Of a stretch of 64,000 bases of DNA, positions 470-19,984 are shown piece by piece (within the stretch, counting starts at the first letter, position 1; every line of letters begins with the position of its first letter). The stretch comes from Rhodanobacteraceae bacterium (GTDB lineage Bacteria > Pseudomonadota > Gammaproteobacteria > Xanthomonadales > Rhodanobacteraceae): positions 1 through 64,000 of the forward strand of contig JAEUPP010000030.1 in assembly GCA_016790075.1 (NCBI GenBank), read 5' to 3'. Made by a program: the position numbers and the translations under genes. The notes beneath the pieces were generated by a model. It was given only the letters and a program-made list of their open reading frames with translations. It did no database searches and was not told where the DNA came from.

Positions 470-588
470 GGGCGTTGCGGGTGCAATAAGGGAGGGGGCA
501 GGGTAGCGTGATGCCGCCGGCGGGCCAATCTGCAGGCCGAAGTCGAACGGGCGTTTACTGAAACCCAAACCGGACTACCATTGGCCGC

Positions 589-2001
589 ATGGACACCGCC
601 ACCGCCCCGCCGTCGCTGAACCCCACACTCGCCAAGCTGCGCGAGGCGTGGAATACCCGTCGCCCTGACTACGCCCAGCGCATGGACGATCTGGCTCGCC
701 TGAGGGCTGCATTCAAGCAGCGGCTCAGCAGCCTCATCGATGCGATGAGTGCGGACTTCGGCCGGCGCTCCGCCCATGAGTCACGCCTGACCGACGGCAT
801 GACCGTGCTGCACGAGATCGATCTCGTGCGCAGCAACCTGCGGCGCTGGATGCGGCCCCGCGCACGCCAGGCCGACTGGATCTTCCTGCCGGCCAGCGCC
901 GAGATCCGTTATCAGGCCCTGGGTGTGGTCGGCATCATCGCCCCCTGGAACTACCCGGTGAATCTTGCGCTGATTCCGCTGGTGAGCGCCATTGGTGCCG
1001 GCAATCACGTGATGCTGAAACCCTCGGAGTTCACGCCACGCACCTCCCAGGTGCTGGCCGAACTGCTGGCTGAGGTGTTTCCGTCCGACCGCGTCGCCAC
1101 GGTACTTGGCGACGCCGGCGTTGCCGCCGAATTCGCCGCCTTGCCGTTTGACCATCTTCTGTTCACGGGTTCCACGCCGGTCGGGCGCAAGGTCATGGCG
1201 GCGGCGGCGCCCAACCTGACTCCGGTTACGCTGGAGCTCGGTGGCAAGTCGCCGGCCATACTCGCGCCCGGTTACCCAATAGCAGTTGCTGCGGCGCGCA
1301 TCGCCTCGGGCAAGCTGCTCAATGCGGGGCAGACCTGCATCGCGCCCGACTATGTGCTGCTGCGGCCACAGGAGCGCGCACCGTTCATCGCGGCGTTCCG
1401 CGACTATGTGACACGCCACTATCCGAATCTGCGCGAGAGCAGCGACTACACCAGCATCATCAACGCGCGCCAGTACACGCGTCTGCAGGCGCTTGTCGAT
1501 GAAGCGGCACGCCGTGGTGCCCAGGTGCTGACCCTGCCCGACGCCGCGGCGCATGACATCGACGCCCGCGTGTTCGCCCCGACCCTGGTGCTCGATGCAC
1601 CGGATGACTGCCGCCTGATGCAGGACGAGATCTTCGGCCCCATCCTGCCGATCGTGACGGTGGAGTCGGTCGATGCAGCCATCGCCTATGTGAACGCCCG
1701 GCCACGGCCACTGGCGCTGTATCACTTCGACAACGATCGCGGCCGCACGCGTCACGTGCTTGACAGTTGCGTCGCCGGTGGAGTCAGTGTAAATGACTGC
1801 ATTTACCATAATGCGCAAAGTGAACTTCCGTTTGGCGGGGTCGGCCCTTCGGGCATGGGCCACTACCATGGCCACCACGGTTTTCTGACCTTTTCCAAAC
1901 AACTGCCGGTGTTCCGCCAGACCCGCTGGACGTCGCTGTCGCTGCTGCGACCGCCTTACCGGGGCCTGGCCGATTTCATCACGCGCTTCCTGACCCGTTG
2001 A
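589..2001 (+). CDS. NAD(P)-dependent aldehyde dehydrogenase (coniferyl-aldehyde-dehydrogenase-like)
   Basis: A 470-residue cytosolic ALDH-superfamily enzyme that oxidises aldehydes to acids. The Rossmann-fold stretch GIIAPWNYPVNL lies near residue 115, the general-base glutamate is E216 in TLELGGKSP, and the catalytic cysteine is C250 in GQTCIAPDY. A QDEIFGPILPI block follows near residue 345. The short length and the GQTCIAPDY signature fit the class 3 / coniferyl aldehyde dehydrogenase branch (CalB-like) rather than 490-500-residue betaine or succinate semialdehyde enzymes. The substrate cannot be fixed; fatty or aromatic aldehydes are both plausible. The downstream regulator gene starts 30 bp after its stop. 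Confidence 0.88.
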   Translation: MDTATAPPSLNPTLAKLREAWNTRRPDYAQRMDDLARLRAAFKQRLSSLIDAMSADFGRRSAHESRLTDGMTVLHEIDLVRSNLRRWMRPRARQADWIFLPASAEIRYQALGVVGIIAPWNYPVNLALIPLVSAIGAGNHVMLKPSEFTPRTSQVLAELLAEVFPSDRVATVLGDAGVAAEFAALPFDHLLFTGSTPVGRKVMAAAAPNLTPVTLELGGKSPAILAPGYPIAVAAARIASGKLLNAGQTCIAPDYVLLRPQERAPFIAAFRDYVTRHYPNLRESSDYTSIINARQYTRLQALVDEAARRGAQVLTLPDAAAHDIDARVFAPTLVLDAPDDCRLMQDEIFGPILPIVTVESVDAAIAYVNARPRPLALYHFDNDRGRTRHVLDSCVAGGVSVNDCIYHNAQSELPFGGVGPSGMGHYHGHHGFLTFSKQLPVFRQTRWTSLSLLRPPYRGLADFITRFLTR

Positions 2002-2031
2002 GACAGCGCCCGGATTGGCGCTAGTCCGTGT

Positions 2032-3591
2032 ATGAATGCCAGGTATCGTCTTGACGACCTGACAATAGACCTCGCCTGCCGGCGCGTGCAGCGTGGCGAC
2101 ACGCCGCTGGAACTGGTCGGTCTCACCTTCGATGTCCTTGCCTGTCTGCTCGCCCGGGGCCAGAGCGTGGTCAGTTTTGACGAGCTGATCGCGTCGGTCT
2201 GGGCGCCGGCCGTGGTGAGCGAGGAGACTGTCACCCAGCGGATCAAGTTGCTGCGCCAGGCACTGGGCGACGATGGACGCAAGCCTCGCTACATACGTTC
2301 CATACGTGGCAAGGGCTATCAGCTCTGTTCCCTGCCGCAACACCAGGAGCCGGACGCTGACCCAGCCCCCGCGCTCGCCGCGGTGTCGGCGCGCTCGCTG
2401 CGCTGGCCGCTGTTGCTCACCGCATTGCCGCTGGCCGTGCTGGGTGTCCTGGTCTGGAAGCGGGAGGCAACACCCCCGCTCAGCGAACGCGATGAACAGT
2501 TGCAGCGCGCACGCTACTACGCGGGAATCGGCCAGAAAGATGACGTTGAGCGCGCGATCGTACTGTACGAAGAACTGCTGACACGCAATGCTCATGACCG
2601 TGCTGCACAGACCGGTCTCAGCTTCGCCTACAGCACCCGTGTCTGCCTCTACAACCAGGCTCCCACCTGGGCCGACCGCGCCCAGGCGCTGGCCGAAGCC
2701 GTACTCGCGGCCGAGCCGCGCAATAGCCTGGCCGTCGCCGCGCTGGGCTATGCCTTCGACTGCCGCGGCGCGATGAACGAAGCGATCACCCACTATGAAC
2801 GGGCCGTAGCACTCGACCCGGGCGCACGCATCGACAGCGCCGCCTCGCTGGCCTATCTCTACATGGTGCGCGGCCGGCTGGCCGATGCGCTGTTGCGCAA
2901 CCTTGAGGTCGAGCGCCATTCGGTAACAAAACCGCGTTTTCTTGAAATCCAGATCGCGCGCAATCTGGAGCTGCTGGGCGAGGCGCCTGCCGCGGAACGG
3001 CGCTACGCGCGCAGTTTCCGGCTCTATCCCGACAACGTCTATTCAAACGCGGCCTGGCCGCGCTACCTGTTCCTGCAAAACCGCTTTGGCGAGGCCGAAA
3101 TCGCGCTCACCCAGGCACAGCAGCGCAGCGAGCATCCTGACCTCTATCTGCTCCAGGCCGAGCTGGCACTACTGCGGGGCCAGCGCGGTACCGCCGCTAC
3201 CGCTTACGCGGCGGCGGCCCGGCTGCGCCCGCATGCAAGCCTTGCCCAGACACTCGCCCAGATCCATGCTGAGTCACCGCCCGATACCAGCTGGCTGACA
3301 CAACACGCACGGAAGCTGAGCACCGAGGGGATGCGCGGCGGCTGGCCGGAGAATCAGATCGAACTGGCTGCCGTGCAGTTGGCGCGCGGCGACAAGTCCG
3401 CCGCTATTGCGGCCTTGCGCGGCGCCGTCGACGAGGGTTGGCGCGACCGCGCCTATCTGCAGACCTCGGCACTGTTCCGCCCACTCGCCGACGAGCCCGC
3501 CTTCGCTGCGTTGCTCGATGACATAGCAAGCCGCGTCACGCGCGAGCGCGAGGCGGCGCGCGACAGCCTGGCGGCCGCGAGCGCGCACTAG
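2032..3591 (+). CDS. CadC/ToxR-like winged-helix regulator with membrane anchor and TPR sensor region
   Basis: This 519-residue protein has an OmpR/PhoB-type winged helix at about residues 5-100 (ending in the typical YIRSIRGKGYQL wing), one hydrophobic segment at about 123-143, and a C-terminal part with TPR-like helical pairs. There is no receiver domain, so it belongs to the one-component, membrane-tethered regulators like CadC, with DNA binding in the cytoplasm and a probable periplasmic TPR domain. It directly follows the aldehyde dehydrogenase gene on the same strand. Its 3' end overlaps the convergent serine hydrolase gene by 4 bp. Target genes and signal are unknown. Confidence 0.82.
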   Translation: MNARYRLDDLTIDLACRRVQRGDTPLELVGLTFDVLACLLARGQSVVSFDELIASVWAPAVVSEETVTQRIKLLRQALGDDGRKPRYIRSIRGKGYQLCSLPQHQEPDADPAPALAAVSARSLRWPLLLTALPLAVLGVLVWKREATPPLSERDEQLQRARYYAGIGQKDDVERAIVLYEELLTRNAHDRAAQTGLSFAYSTRVCLYNQAPTWADRAQALAEAVLAAEPRNSLAVAALGYAFDCRGAMNEAITHYERAVALDPGARIDSAASLAYLYMVRGRLADALLRNLEVERHSVTKPRFLEIQIARNLELLGEAPAAERRYARSFRLYPDNVYSNAAWPRYLFLQNRFGEAEIALTQAQQRSEHPDLYLLQAELALLRGQRGTAATAYAAAARLRPHASLAQTLAQIHAESPPDTSWLTQHARKLSTEGMRGGWPENQIELAAVQLARGDKSAAIAALRGAVDEGWRDRAYLQTSALFRPLADEPAFAALLDDIASRVTREREAARDSLAAASAH

Positions 3592-12089: not shown

Positions 12090-14327
12090 TCACGGTGCGG
12101 GTGTGGTGCCGAGTTCCCGCGCAAAGAAGCGGCGCATGGTGTTGAACACATGCTTCTTCATTGCCGGGGTGGACATGCCGTGCTTGCCGCCGGGATAGGT
12201 CATGAGCTGGAACGGTTTGCCGCGGTTCTGCAGCTCCGCCATGAGTTGCGTCGTATGCGTGAACAACACGTTGTCGTCCGCCATGCCGTGCATCAGCAGC
12301 AAGGGCGACTGCATGCCGTCCAGCCAGGTCAGCACGTTGCTCTGCGCATAACCTTCTGCATTGCCTTGCGGCGTGCCGAGGTAGCGCTCGGTATAGTGCG
12401 TGTCATACAGCGTCCAGTCCGTGGGTGGCGCAACCGAAACACCGGCGGCGACAAGGTCCGAGGACTTGGCCAGCATCATCAGCGTCAGATAGCCGCCATA
12501 GCTCCAGCCGAACACGCCGACGCGCTTGGCATCGACCCAGGGCTGGGTCGCCAGCCATTGGATCAGTGCACGCTGGTCCTCGACCTCCACCGCGCCCAGG
12601 CGGCGGTGGATGGGATCGGAAAACGCGCGCCCGCGCCGCGACATGCCGCGATTGTCGAGGGTCACGACGATATAGCCCTGCTGCGCGAAGTATTGATCCA
12701 TGAGATCGCCGATATCGCGCTTGGCCAGCTGCACGGTTGGGCCGCCGTAGAAATGCGACAGCACCGGATAGCGTTTGGCCGGATCGAACCCCGCAGGCTT
12801 GTACAGGCGGTACCACAGATCCTGGCCATCGGCGGACTTGATACTGCCGAACTCCGGCTCCCGATGCTCGGCGCGATACGCCGCATAGGGATGTGAATCG
12901 TCAACACGGTTCTCTGCAATCCAGGCCAGGCGTTCGCCGTTGGGTTTGCGCACACTGACCTGGGTCGGTGTGCGCGGATCGCTCCAGCTGTCGACGAACA
13001 GCTTGACCGCCCCTTCGGTAACGAAGGTGGCTTCGTGCCATCCGTCCTCCGGGGTTATGCGTTGCGGGTTGGCCGCGTTGCTGCCGTCCAGGCGCAGGGC
13101 ATAGACCTGCTTGTCCAGCGGATGGTCGCGGTTGGCCGCAACATAGATCAGGCCCGCTTCCTCATCCAGCGCCAGCACGCGGTCGATATTCCAGTTTCCT
13201 GTGGACAGTGGGAATTTTTCCTTTCCATCCATACCGTACAAATACAAATGTTTGTACCCACTGCGCTCGGACGCCCAGATGAAGGAATCCTGCCCGGTCA
13301 GGAAACGCAGATCGTCGTGCAGATTGATCCAGGTCGTGCTCGTTTCACTGAGCAGGCGCTGCGATTTCATCGTGTCGATATCGACCAGCACGAGATCGAG
13401 GCGACGCTGGTCGCGCGTCTGGCGCTGGAAAGCCACATGCTTGCCGTCCGGCGTCCAGTTCACGCGGGCGAGATAGATGTCCTTGTCGGGGCCGAGATCT
13501 ATCCAGCGAGTCCGGCCACCGCTGGGTTTGACCAGACCCAGCTGGACACTGACATTGGGCTGGCCGGCGGCCGGATAGCGCTGCTCGGTCACGTTGGTAC
13601 GGTCCGGCTGGATTTCAAAACGCTGCACCAGCGGCACCGCTGTTTCGTCATAGCGCTGGAACGCGATCCAGTCGCTCTTGGGTGACCACCAGTAGCCGCT
13701 GAACCGGTCCATTTCCTCCTGCGCGACGAATTCCGCCTCGCCGTTATGCACCGCGCCCTTGCCGTCGTCGGTCAGGCGCAGCTTGAGATTGCTCTTGAGG
13801 TCGATCGCCCAGAGGTTCTGCCGGCTCACGAACGACACGTAGCGCCCGCTCGCGGCAACCTGGGCGTCAATGATTTCCGCGTCCTTGGGCGTCAACGAGC
13901 GAACTGCCTCGGCGGTTGGCGCGGACAGATCGTAGAGGAATAGCTGACCGGCCAGCGGAAACAACAGTCGCTGGCTATCCGGCGCCCAGCGATAACTGAC
14001 TATGCCCTTGAGTCCGGCGATGCGCTGGCGCTCGCGTGTGGCTTTTTCCGCATCCGACAATTGTTCTTCCGCCGGCTGCAACACTTTGGAGTCGACCAGC
14101 AGCCGCGTCGCGCCATCAGCCAGGTTGTATTCCCACAGATCCAGCGCGTTCTGGTCCTCGGCCTTGCCGCGCAGGAAAGTGACGCGGGTGCCGTCCGGCG
14201 AAATCTTCAGACCCCGCGGGGTGGCCCCGAGCAGGGCCGGGTCGTCATAGATCCGCTCAATCGTGAGTTTTTCAGACATTGCAGGCATCGATACGGCCAA
14301 CAGGCCGGCAAGCAGCATCGTACGCAT
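12090..14327 (-). CDS. S9 family prolyl oligopeptidase / dipeptidyl peptidase IV-like
   Basis: A 745-residue secreted peptidase. The ATG at 14327 gives a short signal peptide (MRTMLLAGLLAVSMPAMS) and has a purine-rich ribosome site upstream; the frame runs further up to 14384. The N-terminal two thirds form a beta-propeller like DPP-IV, and the C-terminal alpha/beta hydrolase domain has the nucleophile in GWSYGGYL, the aspartate in HGMADDNVLF and the histidine in GGKHGMS. It probably removes X-Pro dipeptides in the periplasm. Secreted peptidases are a shared theme with the S46 and DUF885 genes to the right. Confidence 0.9.
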   Translation of the reverse strand: MRTMLLAGLLAVSMPAMSEKLTIERIYDDPALLGATPRGLKISPDGTRVTFLRGKAEDQNALDLWEYNLADGATRLLVDSKVLQPAEEQLSDAEKATRERQRIAGLKGIVSYRWAPDSQRLLFPLAGQLFLYDLSAPTAEAVRSLTPKDAEIIDAQVAASGRYVSFVSRQNLWAIDLKSNLKLRLTDDGKGAVHNGEAEFVAQEEMDRFSGYWWSPKSDWIAFQRYDETAVPLVQRFEIQPDRTNVTEQRYPAAGQPNVSVQLGLVKPSGGRTRWIDLGPDKDIYLARVNWTPDGKHVAFQRQTRDQRRLDLVLVDIDTMKSQRLLSETSTTWINLHDDLRFLTGQDSFIWASERSGYKHLYLYGMDGKEKFPLSTGNWNIDRVLALDEEAGLIYVAANRDHPLDKQVYALRLDGSNAANPQRITPEDGWHEATFVTEGAVKLFVDSWSDPRTPTQVSVRKPNGERLAWIAENRVDDSHPYAAYRAEHREPEFGSIKSADGQDLWYRLYKPAGFDPAKRYPVLSHFYGGPTVQLAKRDIGDLMDQYFAQQGYIVVTLDNRGMSRRGRAFSDPIHRRLGAVEVEDQRALIQWLATQPWVDAKRVGVFGWSYGGYLTLMMLAKSSDLVAAGVSVAPPTDWTLYDTHYTERYLGTPQGNAEGYAQSNVLTWLDGMQSPLLLMHGMADDNVLFTHTTQLMAELQNRGKPFQLMTYPGGKHGMSTPAMKKHVFNTMRRFFARELGTTPAP

Positions 14328-14537
14328 TGGCCACCATTCCCCGGGCGAGGGCGGCATTAGAGCGGGTTTCGGCCTGGGCGTCATGTCGCGTTGCGTTGCG
14401 CGCGGCCCGCGTTGGTGAAAATCCTGCGGCAGCTACCTGCTCGCCGCTCGTGTCTGGTCCGAGCGGGTGCGCGCCGGATCCGCAGCGCCGCGCTACGGAT
14501 TGGCGTTGTGATCCGGTGGCGTGTCGTGCCGATACGT

Positions 14538-16214
14538 TCAACTGTCGAAACGCCGCCAGCGATACCAGTCCAGTGTCGCGGCGAGCAGACGGGTCTCGGT
14601 TTCAGCCTGGGCAGCTACGAAATCCGCTTCGCCCGTCGCACGCTGCAATCGCTGTGACAGCTGCTGCAGCCGTCCAAGCAGATCGGCGCAGGCCAGTTCG
14701 CGCAAGCGATGTTTGAACAGACAGCGTTGCGCATGAAAGGCAAGCGCGGATACCGGCAACAGCATGGCCAGAGCGGCGACCGCCGTGGCGATCCTGCCCG
14801 CGCCATGAATCGCGGGAACCGGCACGATCAGCACCGCAGCCACTGCCGATGCGGCGAAGAGGCCGAGAGCGGCGAGCTGCCAGCCGACCACGCCAACGTG
14901 CTGCCGTACGCGTGCAAGCTTGTCGCGGTATGCGCCCAGCTCGCCCGTCGCATCTTGTCCCAGCCTTTCGCGCAGGTAGCGGTCGCGGAATTCCTGCCAG
15001 GGCAACCGTCGGGCACCGCGCGATCGGCGCAGGTGCGCGACGGCGAGCGTCTGCGCCAACACGCGCGCATCGTCGGGCAACGGCGCCGCAAACAGGAAAC
15101 CGAAGTCGTGCGGCTGGGGCGCGGTAGCCGGGTGCGCCGCATCGCCATTTACCGTTTGCGGAGCAAAAGCCAGCGTGCTGCGCGCGATTTCGGCTGCGAG
15201 GTGCAGCGCGGTCCAGCGTTGTCTTACGGCGGCGGTCGCTGATGCCGAAGCGGAAAACATGCGCCGCAGCGCGATAACGCCCGGAACCAGCAGCAATGCC
15301 GCCGCCAACGGGAGCAACAGGGCTGCACTGCCGGTCACGGTGTTGCGGAACACGCTCACCAGTGCCAGAGACACGGTCCCGATGGCGATCAACGCGATGA
15401 GACGCCGTACCACGGCCTCGCTGGCGCGTGTGCATTGCCTGCTGCATGCGTGCGCGAGCGCACTGCATTCGGTGGCGATGCGCTGCGCCATGTCATCCAG
15501 CGTCAGCGCCGGCGCCGGCAACACCGCCGGCAGTCGCGGCGGCTGCCAGGTCAGGTCACGCGGATAACGCAACTCGTCGTAGACGTGCAGCTTCTGCGTT
15601 TCATCGATCCAGAACGTCAGCGCATACAGCGGCTTGCCGCTACGCAGCGCATGCTCGGCGAATTCGTTCGTGCGGCCGGGCTTGCCCAGGCCGTCGCGAT
15701 GCTTGGGTTGCAGGATCAGCGCGATATCGGCCAGGCGGAGGACTTCCGCAGCGGTCTCGGCAAAGCGCGTCGAGCGTTCGGAGGCGACGCTCGCGACACG
15801 TTCCTGCAGCACCGATGCGCGCTGCAGGCGCTGCAGCGTCTTCTCGCGCTGCGCCGGAGAAAAGTCCTCATCAAACGGCGCACGCGGGCTCCTGGCTGCG
15901 AGAAATTCATCACGCGCCTGCGGCAGCAATACGCGCAGGGCGATACCGCTGCTGTCGCAGGCATCGGCCAGAATGCCCTCGCCGCCGCTGCCGATCTGCA
16001 TCACACCGACGAAGAAATGCCCCTCGTGCAGCGACAGCCGCGGGTGGGCGTGCAGCTGCTTCAGCTTGTCCGTGACCTGGCGCGTCAGCTCCTCGCCGAA
16101 CTTCGCGCGGCGCTGCGGATCGCCGATGCCAGGAAACAGGTCGCGCGCGCCGGCGAAACCGATGTGCGCGGCGCAGGCGTGCGCGACGGACTTGCGGTCA
16201 TCGATGGCTGTCAT
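14538..16214 (-). CDS. SLOG-like domain protein with four membrane segments (putative defence effector)
   Basis: A 558-residue protein with no confident named family. The start at 16214 is chosen for a GAGGG site upstream and because the N-terminus then begins near the domain. Residues 16-205 look like a SLOG/Rossmann nucleotide-sensing domain: HIGFAGARDL opens it, GSGGEGILADAC and IALRVLLPQARDEFL correspond to the glycine-rich loop and second strand, and LADIALILQPKHRDG with TNEFAEHALRSGKPL closes it. Four hydrophobic helices follow in two pairs (about 271-289/297-317 and 444-464/473-495), each pair followed by helices resembling SLATT-type modules. The known theme for SLOG plus SLATT is ligand-triggered membrane disruption in phage defence; this assignment is inference. 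The gene sits downstream of abiEi/abiEii on the same strand, 239 bp away. Confidence 0.55.
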   Translation of the reverse strand: MTAIDDRKSVAHACAAHIGFAGARDLFPGIGDPQRRAKFGEELTRQVTDKLKQLHAHPRLSLHEGHFFVGVMQIGSGGEGILADACDSSGIALRVLLPQARDEFLAARSPRAPFDEDFSPAQREKTLQRLQRASVLQERVASVASERSTRFAETAAEVLRLADIALILQPKHRDGLGKPGRTNEFAEHALRSGKPLYALTFWIDETQKLHVYDELRYPRDLTWQPPRLPAVLPAPALTLDDMAQRIATECSALAHACSRQCTRASEAVVRRLIALIAIGTVSLALVSVFRNTVTGSAALLLPLAAALLLVPGVIALRRMFSASASATAAVRQRWTALHLAAEIARSTLAFAPQTVNGDAAHPATAPQPHDFGFLFAAPLPDDARVLAQTLAVAHLRRSRGARRLPWQEFRDRYLRERLGQDATGELGAYRDKLARVRQHVGVVGWQLAALGLFAASAVAAVLIVPVPAIHGAGRIATAVAALAMLLPVSALAFHAQRCLFKHRLRELACADLLGRLQQLSQRLQRATGEADFVAAQAETETRLLAATLDWYRWRRFDS

Positions 16215-16453
16215 GTGAAGGCCCTCGCGCGCGGGCGCGGTGGGCGGGTCGGCACGGCGCTCGGGCGAACAGCGCTGCGCAATACAGATGCGGTTCCGGC
16301 GCGAACACAGAGCCGGAGTGACGTGCTGGAAGCTCGAATCATCGCCTCTCCCTGGCCACAGCAACGGGTGCGATCCCACGCCGATCGGGCCCAGAGTAGC
16401 GCGAAGCTACTGTTCGCGGAATCGCGCGACCTCGACGTTCTGGTTCACGCAGT

Positions 16454-17389
16454 TCATTGCTTGGCAATGCGCTCAAGCGTGTCAGCGAGCTGCCGGTAGT
16501 CGGTGCCGCGCTTGGCGTCGCTGCGGCGCGCCATGTTCTGAAGCTTGCGGCGAATGCCTGGTAGCTCGATGGCCTGCGGCAGCCCGATCAGCGCGAAGTC
16601 GGGTGCTTCTCGTTCAAGCGACAGCAGGAAATCGCGGGATGACGCGTCCATGAGTTTGGGGATGCGCTCGAGCATTCGTGACCGTGACTGCAACAAAGCT
16701 TCGATCGTCACCGGCTCTGCGCTCATCCCGCGAAACTGCCGGTCGAACACCTCGGTGAAATCAACAGGCTCTCCGGGCGCGAGCATCTCCGCTGCCGGTT
16801 TCGGGCTGACTGCCAGATAGACCAGGAACGTATGCCACAGCGTCTCGTCGAGACGCCCGGAATCGAGCAGCAGGCCGACGTCGAACCAGTCACGCGGGTG
16901 CTGGCGGGATAGCGCTGCGGCGAGCTTGCCGGCGTAGAGATCGGCAAAGTGAAGAACTTGCACTTGGGCAGAACCGAACTCGCGCTCCACGTTGGGCCGC
17001 AGCTCCATGCGCCGTACCGGATGCACGGTGCCGCGCATGACCGGCGTGGTTTCGATCGTGACCTGGGTGCGGCCACGGCTCGCAATCAGGCGATTGATCG
17101 TGTCTGCACCATTCGCCGCCGACGGACGTACCTGCAGCCGCAACGGCGGCGCAGCGAGGCGAGCGGAGAGCGCCTCCAACGCCTCGCCGATCTGCGCAGC
17201 GTCCAAGCCGTAGTCCTGCACCGATAACCAGGTGACGTCGATATCGATCGACAGTCGCGGCATGTCATGCTCGAACAAGTTGATTGCTGTGCCGCCCTTG
17301 AGGGCGAAGCGTGGCTCGGTATCGAGCAGCGGCAACATCTGTACCAGCAGACTGACACGATCCAGGTAGCGCTTATCCCAGGTGTTCAT
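16454..17389 (-). CDS. abiEii: AbiEii-type nucleotidyltransferase toxin
   Basis: 311 residues from the ATG at 17389, which lies inside the end of abiEi (17-bp overlap), the normal arrangement for this pair. The nucleotidyltransferase signature is KGGTAINLF (GGT at 32-34) followed by the D-x-D pair at D49/D51 in SIDIDVTW. AbiEii toxins transfer nucleotides to cellular RNA acceptors and arrest growth; together with AbiEi they form a toxin-antitoxin system that can give abortive infection. The frame is open further upstream to 17602, but that part is the abiEi antisense frame and is not coding. Confidence 0.88.
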   Translation of the reverse strand: MNTWDKRYLDRVSLLVQMLPLLDTEPRFALKGGTAINLFEHDMPRLSIDIDVTWLSVQDYGLDAAQIGEALEALSARLAAPPLRLQVRPSAANGADTINRLIASRGRTQVTIETTPVMRGTVHPVRRMELRPNVEREFGSAQVQVLHFADLYAGKLAAALSRQHPRDWFDVGLLLDSGRLDETLWHTFLVYLAVSPKPAAEMLAPGEPVDFTEVFDRQFRGMSAEPVTIEALLQSRSRMLERIPKLMDASSRDFLLSLEREAPDFALIGLPQAIELPGIRRKLQNMARRSDAKRGTDYRQLADTLERIAKQ

Positions 17390-18215
17390 CGAGCGCCACC
17401 GGGAGGGTGATCTGGTACTTCGGATGCAGACGTCCGCCGGGCGCGAGTACGCGCTTGCCGCTACCCAGATCGACGTCGTCGAGCGAGACGCGCGCAAGCC
17501 AGGCGTGGTTGTGGCGTTCCGCCAGCGCAAGAAAGAGGCGCTTGGCTTTGACGCTGGTGCATCGGCAAAGCAAACGGTGGACCTGGTCGGGCCGCAGTCC
17601 ATTGAGGCCTTGCATCACTGCGTCGGCTTCGAGGATCTGTGCCGTACTGGGCGGCTCGTCGCACAGTTCTAGCGCCGCGCGCTCGTTGCTGGCCATGACA
17701 ACACCAGCGCCCGAGGTGTTGGCGTCGGCTTCGAGTTCGAGGCCCTGCTGGAACAAGCGCTCGTCATCGGCCTCGCTAGCGAAGCGCATAGAGGTCGATG
17801 GGAAGGGTCCGCGACCGCGGTGCGCAAAACGCTCGGGGACCGTCAGTTTCGTGACCCAGCCCGGCAAGCGATCCGGCCCGTAGAGTGTCACCTCTTCATC
17901 TGTGCCAAATCGCAGATAGTGCTCATGCCCGCGCCATGCCAGCGCGAAGCGTCCTCCCACGTGCAGACGCAGGGCTTCTCGTTGCTGCAGCGATTGCATG
18001 ACACCAGCCCAGTGCAGGCTGGCCCTAGGGTTGGTGTAGACCCCGCGCGCTGGCGCGTTGAGCCAGCCACTGCGCACGTAACGGGCGAGCAGGCTGCTCG
18101 AATAGCCCTGCGCACGGAGCCAGCGCGCCGAAGCCAGGTCGGTGTCACCCAGCTCGCGCATCAGTTGGTTTAGCTTGGTGCCTTTTTGCGCACTCACGGT
18201 GAGTAAATTAGTCAT
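17373..18215 (-). CDS. abiEi: AbiEi-type antitoxin and autorepressor
   Basis: 280 residues with the family layout: an N-terminal winged helix (about 12-60, with RWLRAQGYSSSLLARYVRSG and WLNAPARGVY) that binds DNA, then a larger antitoxin domain. The start is uncertain: ATG at 18215 is used, TTG at 18233 and GTG at 18197 are alternatives, and none has a strong ribosome site. One operator-like palindrome lies just inside the start (18192-18204) and another 69 bp upstream (18261-18273), matching the known autorepression of abiE operons through paired inverted repeats. Confidence in the family is high, in the start moderate. Confidence 0.88.
   Translation of the reverse strand: MTNLLTVSAQKGTKLNQLMRELGDTDLASARWLRAQGYSSSLLARYVRSGWLNAPARGVYTNPRASLHWAGVMQSLQQREALRLHVGGRFALAWRGHEHYLRFGTDEEVTLYGPDRLPGWVTKLTVPERFAHRGRGPFPSTSMRFASEADDERLFQQGLELEADANTSGAGVVMASNERAALELCDEPPSTAQILEADAVMQGLNGLRPDQVHRLLCRCTSVKAKRLFLALAERHNHAWLARVSLDDVDLGSGKRVLAPGGRLHPKYQITLPVALDEHLG
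18192..18204. promoter_or_regulatory. Operator-like palindrome 1 at abiEi start
   Basis: ACTCACGGTGAGT is a perfect palindrome with one central base, located at codons 4-8 of abiEi if the ATG at 18215 is used. A near-identical copy lies 69 bp upstream. AbiEi antitoxins repress their own promoter by binding two inverted repeats, so this is the natural candidate site. Confidence 0.6.
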
Positions 18216-18593
18216 TTCGCAAACCCGATGCAAGGTGGGGGTTTACGAATAACGTTGGGCACTCACCCTGAGTGAGACAAATAGAAGATGGACAAACCAA
18301 CGCTGCAGTCTTTGGGAGCAGCTACAGTTGCACGGAGCAGGGAGAATTCGAATGGCCGCGAGTGCAGCATCTCGTTAGAGATCCGCGTCATGCGGCTCAT
18401 GCTGTAGATAGGGTTTGACCAGCTGCTCGGAGTAAGCCCCCTCCCGCGGTCGGAGGCAGCGTTGTGGCGAAAGCTTTCCAGCAATTCATTCAGTGACGAC
18501 ACGTTTCCCCAGGAGTTACTGGGTCCACGCCCCCAGTGACGAACGCTGATCCCTGCGGCCAATGATGGCGGTTACACCCGCTTCGGCGTAACG
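18216..18593. other. Intergenic segment between abiEi and mnmE
   Basis: About 380 bp. The abiEi-proximal part contains the second palindrome and presumably the abiE promoter. The remainder holds no frame that looks like a real gene; a 99-residue minus-strand frame (18263-18562) has no recognisable domain and its stop falls inside the palindrome. A small hairpin (ATCTC/GAGAT near 18370) and an imperfect GTTAC/GTAAC hairpin near the mnmE stop are visible. It may be the left border of an acquired defence segment, but no direct repeats, attachment site or transposase supports that. Confidence 0.4.
18261..18273. promoter_or_regulatory. Operator-like palindrome 2 upstream of abiEi
   Basis: ACTCACCCTGAGT is an imperfect copy of the palindrome at 18192-18204; on the plus strand both sit in the context GCACTCAC-x-xTGAGT. 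Placed about 46 bp before the abiEi start codon, it would overlap the promoter and is a plausible second AbiEi binding site. Confidence 0.55.
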
Positions 18594-19940
18594 CTACTTT
18601 CCGATGCAAAAACTCGAAAAGATCGCTCCCAGCAAATCATCGCTGCTGAACTCGCCGGTGAGTTCGCCGAGATCGCGCTGGGCATGGCGCAATTCTTCAG
18701 CAGCGAGTTCACCGGCGTTCTGGCTGGTCAGGGCAAATTCGGCCGCGGCGAGATGGGCGGCGACGCGCTCCAGCGCGACGACATGGCGGGTACGTGCGCT
18801 GAAGGCGCCGCGGCTGGCGTCGCCGGTACCGGATAGCTGCTTGAGTTCGTGCCGCAGCAAGTCCAGGCCGACGGCGGTGCGGGCGGATAGATCGATGCGG
18901 ACGTTGCCCTCGTGCTCCAGGCGCTGGGGCAATGTCTGGGTGAGGTCGATCTTGTTACATATGAGCAGGCGCGCTTGCCCTGACTGGGCGGGGCCCAGCA
19001 GAACGAGATCCTCCGCGAGGTGTTCCGCATCGGTAACCAGCAGGGCGACATCGGCGCGTTCCAGCTCGTTGCGCGCGCGGCGTATGCCTTCGCGTTCGAC
19101 GATATCGGCCGAATCGCGCAGGCCGGCGGTATCGACCAGGGTCAGCAGCACGCCGTCGAGCTGTATGTTTTCGCGCAGCACATCGCGCGTGGTGCCAGCG
19201 ATGGGTGTCACGATGGCTCGCTCCTGCGCTGCCAGCGCATTGAGCAGGCTGGACTTGCCGGCATTGGGGCGGCCGACGATAACGACGTGCAAGCCGTCGG
19301 CAAGGCGTACGCCGCGGCGGGTAGCCGCGAGCAGGACTGACAGCTCGTCGCTGACCGCGTCGAGCCGTTGGCGCAATTCCGGTGCCGCCAGAAAGTCGAT
19401 TTCTTCCTCGGGAAAGTCGATCGCGGCTTCGATGTAGACCCGCAGGTCGACGAGGTTCTTCAGCAGGTGCGAAACCTGTGCAGAGAATTCGCCGTCCAGT
19501 GAGCGTAGCGCCGCCCGTGCCGCGGCTTCCGACTGGCTCGCGATGAGATCCGCGATGGCCTCGGCCTGGGTCAGGTCAAGCTTGCCGTTGAGAAAGGCAC
19601 GTTCGGAAAACTCACCTGCGCGCGCAGGGCGGGCACCAAGTTCGCAAACGCGGCGCAGCAGCAGGTCCAGCACGACTGGCGAGCCGTGTGCCTGCAGTTC
19701 AACCACGTCTTCGCCGGTGAACGAATTCGGCTGTGGAAAACTAAGCAATATTCCCTTGTCGATTAATGCACCGTCGCCTCCCCGGAACGCGCAGTAGTGC
19801 GCATGGCGGGCGCGTGGCGCATGGCCGAGCAGGGTTGCGGCTATGGCAGCAGCGGCGTTGCCGGAAACACGCAGTATGCCGATGCCGGCAGACCCCGGAG
19901 CGGTCGCGATCGCGGCGATGGTGTCGGCACTGGCGAGCAT
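18594..19940 (-). CDS. mnmE: tRNA modification GTPase MnmE (TrmE)
   Basis: 448 residues from the ATG at 19940 (MLASADTIAAIAT), preferred over 19976 because the family begins with this D-T-I-A-A-I-A-T motif. The N-terminal folate-binding domain is followed by a G domain with GRPNAGKSSLL (P-loop), DTAGLRD and NKID, and the protein ends in the essential CIGK tetrapeptide with its reactive cysteine. With MnmG it forms the 5-carboxymethylaminomethyl modification on wobble U34 of tRNAs. It follows yidC on the same strand, separated by a hairpin. Confidence 0.96.
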   Translation of the reverse strand: MLASADTIAAIATAPGSAGIGILRVSGNAAAAIAATLLGHAPRARHAHYCAFRGGDGALIDKGILLSFPQPNSFTGEDVVELQAHGSPVVLDLLLRRVCELGARPARAGEFSERAFLNGKLDLTQAEAIADLIASQSEAAARAALRSLDGEFSAQVSHLLKNLVDLRVYIEAAIDFPEEEIDFLAAPELRQRLDAVSDELSVLLAATRRGVRLADGLHVVIVGRPNAGKSSLLNALAAQERAIVTPIAGTTRDVLRENIQLDGVLLTLVDTAGLRDSADIVEREGIRRARNELERADVALLVTDAEHLAEDLVLLGPAQSGQARLLICNKIDLTQTLPQRLEHEGNVRIDLSARTAVGLDLLRHELKQLSGTGDASRGAFSARTRHVVALERVAAHLAAAEFALTSQNAGELAAEELRHAQRDLGELTGEFSSDDLLGAIFSSFCIGK

Positions 19941-19984
19941 GCGAGCCTGCGCTGCAGTCGGTTTGGATCGGTGCAATCGATGGC

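Follow-up and report, generated by a model that had tools for sequence, protein, structure and literature searches.

An open reading frame in the genome of a Rhodanobacteraceae bacterium (5.6 Mb, 83 contigs) raises the question of whether a predicted nucleotide-sensing domain joined to membrane helices serves as an anti-phage effector. The window, i.e., the whole 64,000-nucleotide stretch of contig JAEUPP010000030.1 that was analysed, carries this gene on its minus strand. The original prediction had assigned to it an N-terminal SLOG domain, two pairs of membrane helices resembling SLATT modules, and a role in defence argued from an adjacent toxin-antitoxin pair. The gene and its parts are as follows.

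14538..16214, minus strand: gene for a predicted SLOG domain plus two 2TM (SLATT-like) modules, 558 aa; start ATG at 16214, stop included
15567..16175, minus strand: predicted SLOG domain, residues 14-216
15660..15683, minus strand: KPGRTNEF loop, residues 178-185 (alignment A3 and pattern check)
15021..15500, minus strand: first predicted 2TM module, residues 239-398, hydrophobic peaks 271-289 and 298-316
14547..14999, minus strand: second predicted 2TM module, residues 406-556, hydrophobic peaks 448-466 and 475-493

Translation of the window confirmed the underlying observation as a whole: the minus-strand frame 14538-16214 encodes 558 residues plus a stop and contains each of the motifs that had been named (HIGFAGAR [residues 17-24], GSGGEG, LPQARDEF, LADIALILQP, and RSGKPLYAL). 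On the plus strand of the same interval, stops interrupt the frame. An alternative GTG start at 16379 would give 613 aa; the ATG at 16214 was chosen because the aligned position in the Tahibacter aquaticus protein is an ATG. Homologues of the protein occur in T. aquaticus (genome G003; 61-62% identity), whose genus the window's genome is taken to share, two Lysobacterales MAGs, an Akkermansiaceae MAG, and a Planctomycetota MAG. Compared to the T. aquaticus gene, dN is 0.297 and dS 1.013 (dN/dS 0.29; mnmE in the same comparison: 0.14). Given these homologues and this ratio, the frame is more than a chance ORF, and the gene is under purifying selection. The most constrained portion is the SLOG part (dN/dS 0.22, 73% identity), with 50-57% identity in the membrane modules.

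The N-terminal part has a SLOG fold according to the predicted model, which is Rossmann-like and of the YpsA/DprA/LOG type, with YpsA rather than LOG as the nearest fold. The SLOG reading had been made to depend on a profile match of residues 1-210: the Pfam SLOG model does not match the window's protein (P0001), so that the reading stands by the fold of the predicted model and not by Pfam sequence models. A cpYpsA Pfam match was found on one relative (P0008) at E 0.24, and Foldseek against the PDB returned nothing at E <= 0.001. Where the two align, the SLOG part is 14% identical to YpsA of B. subtilis (DUF1273; SLOG superfamily), whose solved chain of 178 residues is the SLOG domain alone, unlike the fused protein of the window. 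Two loops are visible in this part, GFAGAR and KPGRTNEF, the latter occupying the position where K/R-P-G-G-T stands in most relatives (alignment A3). The Asp of the family GAD/GGD motif is replaced by Glu in both Tahibacter proteins (alignment A3), and the ligand may therefore differ in this genus. An enzymatic role, in which the SLOG part would generate or degrade a signal as a nucleotide or base hydrolase anchored by the membrane part, is very unlikely: PGGxGTxxE, the catalytic motif of LOG-type phosphoribohydrolases, was present in 0/14 alignment rows in a pattern check, the nearest fold is not LOG, and two long 2TM modules exceed the needs of an anchor. A SLOG-type sensor carried on a membrane effector is very likely what the protein represents.

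Following residue 216, four hydrophobic peaks form two pairs, and the predicted model shows long trailing helices, bearing out the two membrane-helix pairs that had been read from the sequence; three peaks instead of four were found in 2/5 full-length close relatives. In the predicted model, this region takes the 2TM-plus-helix form of SLATT. SLATT Pfam models do not match P0001, and the best SLATT_1 score among relatives was 23.4 bits (P0009) against a cut-off of 26.3. Matches of SLATT_1 below cut-off fall on the equivalent of the second module in P0009, P0004, and P0008, sub-threshold SLATT_1 occurs in 4/7 members of alignment A4, and SLATT_3 matches in relatives are likewise below cut-off. 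No Pfam model exceeded its cut-off for P0001, P0004, P0005, P0008, or P0009 (for P0002 and P0003 the Pfam result comes from the tally of A4), and PADLOC had no hit on P0001 at E <= 1 and none on five close relatives at E <= 0.01. A profile comparison of the two modules with each other showed no similarity (Prob 7). The proposed SLATT likeness is thus upheld by sub-threshold matches in relatives and by profile homology to a DUF4231 family (see below), but by no match over cut-off in the window's branch. The SLATT 2TM effectors of CBASS, TIR, and DRT10 systems share the 2TM unit and trailing helix; the window's protein differs from them in having two modules per chain fused to SLOG and relatives whose Pfam matches are sub-threshold.

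The close family is rare. It was found in 4/61 related genomes (window's genome counted), in at least 1/369 genomes of the class (the window's own; at most three first-look candidates scored per genome), and at 6 loci of a species-representative genome collection scanned with short patterns, from which the window's own record may be absent; none was found in the plasmids, phages, or viral contigs searched. The distribution of the gene is patchy and accessory. An order-wide profile search, again a lower bound with at most three first-look candidates scored per genome, matched at least 14/398 genomes, with strong matches in G056, G047, and G003 among the candidates scored and weak matches in 11 more. 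Seven of the 11 weakly matching proteins were read, and six have a SLOG-like opening followed by the 2TM layout (~555-690 aa), the seventh (L029) having no SLOG part and an alpha/beta-hydrolase-like end. DUF4231 exceeded its cut-off in 4/7 of these distant relatives and SLATT_1 did so in L029; all further SLATT_1, SLATT_3, and SLATT_6 matches among the seven were below cut-off. A profile built from the six distant SLOG-2TM proteins (A5) aligned with the close-family profile over residues 13-475 (Prob 98.5, E 2e-15, 14% identity); the SLOG parts alone gave Prob 98.0 and E 1.6e-13, and the membrane modules were weakly similar (Prob 17 and 37). Searched with A5, the genus yielded 2/8 genomes, i.e., the window's gene and its T. 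aquaticus orthologue, and Pseudomonadota at least 25/398 genomes, a lower bound from at most three first-look candidates per genome, in which the window's own genome and some weak matches are counted. The scan reaching Planctomycetota (G426, G892, G874) scored at most six candidates per genome and is also a lower bound. The wider family (~555 aa and more; L033, L034, L037, L076, and others) thus has the same order of SLOG, 2TM, and 2TM as the close branch and, as there, a frequent TIR neighbour, whereas it is only 14% identical to that rare branch in the profile alignment. A stand-alone SLOG relative of 234 aa without a membrane part was seen in Planctomycetota (L039:1462-2166, minus strand), with no defence gene in the 3.6 kb read around it.

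We then considered the surroundings of the gene, which the original prediction had described as directly downstream of a toxin-antitoxin pair. The neighbouring features are as follows.

12090..14384, minus strand: S9-type peptidase (DPP-like), one anchor of a variable interval; named by eye from sequence
16454..17602, minus strand: AbiEii toxin, ORF as listed (Pfam AbiEii 2e-34, PADLOC AbiEii 5.4e-100); outside the proposed mechanism
17373..18233, minus strand: AbiEi antitoxin (Pfam AbiEi_3 1.1e-33, PADLOC AbiEi 4.6e-85); outside the proposed mechanism
18594..19976, minus strand: mnmE, the other anchor of the variable interval; named by eye from sequence

The position was correctly described: AbiEi and AbiEii domains lie in adjacent genes, which places the pair in the AbiE toxin-antitoxin class (Pfam, PADLOC), on the same strand and 239 bp upstream of the window's gene, with mnmE beyond and the peptidase downstream; by eye, AbiEii probably starts at an internal ATG near 17386. 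The argument for defence drawn from this pair is not supported, because the T. aquaticus orthologue sits at the same mnmE site without AbiE and the site is variable across the genus. For the same reason, and although strand and spacing would suit it, a role of the gene as a third component of the AbiE unit is exceedingly improbable, with no AbiE pair noticed by eye at other homologue loci with listed ORFs. The interval between mnmE and the peptidase differs among eight Tahibacter genomes (frames >=200 aa, so that small genes may be missed; contents by eye unless a Pfam model is named). It holds AbiE and the SLOG-2TM-2TM gene in the window, the SLOG-2TM-2TM gene and a phospholipase A-like gene in T. 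aquaticus, and a regulator, a 293-aa partner, and the phospholipase gene in G001 and G005 (in G001 the regulator matches GntR at the Pfam cut-off; that of G005 looks similar by eye). The phospholipase gene stands alone in G006 and beside a FabV-like gene in G007, nothing was recognisable among the frames of this size in G004, and in G002 only ~1 kb of contig is left. Given these varying contents, the site is a variable one that carries the window's gene as accessory cargo and AbiE as an independent occupant. The 293-aa partner of the regulator is nucleotidyltransferase-like by eye and has no Pfam match.

The recurring informative neighbour of the family is TIR, not AbiE. A Pfam TIR_2 match lies within 5 kb at 11/18 related loci (0.14 expected), made up of 4/7 close-family and 7/11 distant loci, and in a separate sample of 24 further A5-matching genomes not selected for TIR, it does so in 10 (0.16 expected); the remaining 7/18 and 14/24 loci have none within that distance. 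The family is statistically linked to TIR. The linkage probabilities assume independent loci and uniform placement, whereas the loci are related by descent and one genome (G047) contributes two of them. Only the size of the excess is therefore trustworthy, and part of it may merely reflect shared defence islands. In the 18-locus count, linked flags were assigned by hand from match coordinates, G013 and G455, whose short matches fall in the membrane part, were retained as misses, and G425:C242 (a weak second match), the Planctomycetota G892 and G874 (G426 being in), and P0005 were omitted. The 24-locus count omits G000, takes G1125 by its better locus, and treats G1370 (sub-cut-off TIR_2 at 0.5 kb) and G1247 (9.3 kb) as misses.

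Genes adjoining homologues carry Pfam TIR_2 at L009, L010, L012, and L018, together with nSTAND1 and WD40 at L009, FGE at L012, and NB-ARC-like and TPR-like parts at or below cut-off at L010 and L018. At L018, the homologue lies 15 bp past the end of the TIR gene; the gap is ~0.6 kb at L009 and L010, and at L012 a second FGE-like frame intervenes between the two. In the wider family, a TIR gene lies ~0.9 kb upstream on the same strand at L076, where a serine recombinase-like gene follows the SLOG gene, and a TIR_2 gene that is SIR2-like by eye (L077:1633-3018, minus strand) directly follows the SLOG-2TM-2TM gene on the same strand.

Three further proteins were seen at such loci. At L012, past the TIR gene that follows homologue P0004, a 682-aa frame (15932-17980, minus strand) has a SLOG-like opening (MGFVGARSL), a later GANGADSL-type motif, and several hydrophobic stretches by eye; it had no significant match to the distant-family profile. 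The L029 protein (493-2784, minus strand; 763 aa), ~2 kb from a TIR_2 match, has SLATT_1 over cut-off (3.4e-6) and its alpha/beta-hydrolase-like C-terminus below cut-off, and is possibly a different SLATT fusion effector. In G056, the TIR-nSTAND1-WD40 gene and a gene of the AAA/TPR kind flank the frame of a 408-aa protein (L009:6750-7976, minus strand), which is metallo-beta-lactamase-like by eye and has no Pfam match at E <= 0.01.

The conflict-system context that had been proposed thus applies to many relatives through their TIR neighbours, but not to the window's own contig, which has no TIR_2 match. The window's genome has six such matches, all on other contigs; none exists anywhere in the T. 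aquaticus genome, and the Akkermansiaceae homologue has no linked TIR. These Tahibacter copies might accordingly be degenerating orphans whose TIR partner was lost, either relics or drifted to other use, and the Glu in the family motif of both proteins and the faster divergence of the membrane modules than of the SLOG part would fit such decay. We consider this improbable, in view of the low dN/dS overall and in the SLOG part and of frames that are intact in two species at the same site.

Published reports describe several related systems. In type I Thoeris, ThsA responds through its SLOG domain to cADPR isomers produced by TIR (PMC11204291, PMC12948488), and the fold of this domain has been described (PMC7272460); in type II Thoeris, the target of the TIR product is a TM-macro effector (PMC11204291, PMC12847820). 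SLATT has been predicted as an ADPr-regulated membrane effector (PMC9503650) and as a nucleotide-responsive pore (PMC7159879), and it is a required part of DRT10 (PMC12632851). The type I pair of ThsA (SIR2-SLOG) and the TIR protein ThsB resembles the present family, in which SLOG would likewise sense a TIR product and many relatives adjoin a TIR gene, but P0001 has no Pfam SIR2 match and instead has helices with the four hydrophobic peaks. The type II ThsA follows a similar theme, being a membrane effector linked to TIR whose nucleotide-binding domain lies in the cytosol (PMC11204291); its sensor is a macro domain, for which Pfam gave no match in P0001, whereas the window's protein has SLOG, 2+2 helices, and long trailing helices. 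With no SIR2, no macro domain, and no TIR in cis, the window's protein is not Thoeris by definition, although TIR-linked relatives, at the 11/18 and 10/24 loci with such a neighbour, may work like Thoeris. The combination of one SLOG with two SLATT-like pairs had been offered as undescribed, which overstated its novelty, since the wider family is not rare and the TIR-SLOG and SLATT-pore themes are in print (PMC9503650, PMC7159879). The theme was thus already predicted, and the SLOG-2TM-2TM fusion looks like a new variation on it. In the portions of the literature covered by our search, to which Burroughs et al. 2015 (NAR) does not belong, we found no description of a SLOG-SLATT fusion as a TIR effector. 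That paper reportedly named the SLOG and SLATT families, and it may already draw such a fusion.

With a SLOG part that lacks the LOG motif placed before membrane modules, often beside a TIR gene, the protein reads as a ligand-gated membrane effector. We infer the ligand class, the gating, the membrane damage, and the anti-phage role as follows. A single protein would act as sensor and effector: the cytoplasmic N-terminal SLOG would bind a ligand of nucleotide type, with an ADP-ribose derivative such as TIR enzymes produce as the likeliest candidate. Binding would alter how the protein assembles, whereupon both SLATT-like helix pairs would open the inner membrane or disrupt it, and growth arrest or cell death would come ahead of phage maturation. 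In many relatives, an adjoining TIR protein with a STAND-, TPR-, FGE-, or SIR2-like scaffold would sense infection and make the ligand. The orphan copy in Tahibacter may answer to an unlinked TIR, such as one of the six in the window's genome, or to another signal, as the lack of any TIR_2 match in T. aquaticus suggests for the copy there. A nucleotide-gated channel or stress regulator with a physiological instead of an immune role, comparable to TRPM proteins with SLOG before the transmembrane part, is an unlikely alternative reading of the same domain order.

Because relatives often adjoin TIR genes, we regard the window's protein as the likely effector of a conflict or defence system, in the position of its executioner. 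A fused SLOG sensor and SLATT-type membrane effector within a TIR-signalling, Thoeris-like theme, orphaned at this locus, is probably the best explanation overall, and TIR chemistry is the probable source of the ligand in TIR-linked relatives, with chances evenly balanced that the window's own copy functions in phage defence. More tentatively, and with somewhat less than an even chance, the family could constitute an unrecognised, widespread Thoeris-like class in which a partner SLOG reads a TIR-made ADP-ribose-type signal and the same chain permeabilises the membrane as a bacterial counterpart of the TRPM channels with their SLOG head, the Tahibacter copy having become TIR-independent and responsive to another nucleotide signal. 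If true, the family would add a Thoeris-like class with sensor and membrane executioner in one protein. It would also provide an annotation-dark family with a function open to testing, a family in which the window's protein has no Pfam match over cut-off and the branch no PADLOC match, and would make the range of SLOG ligands beyond ThsA directly testable.
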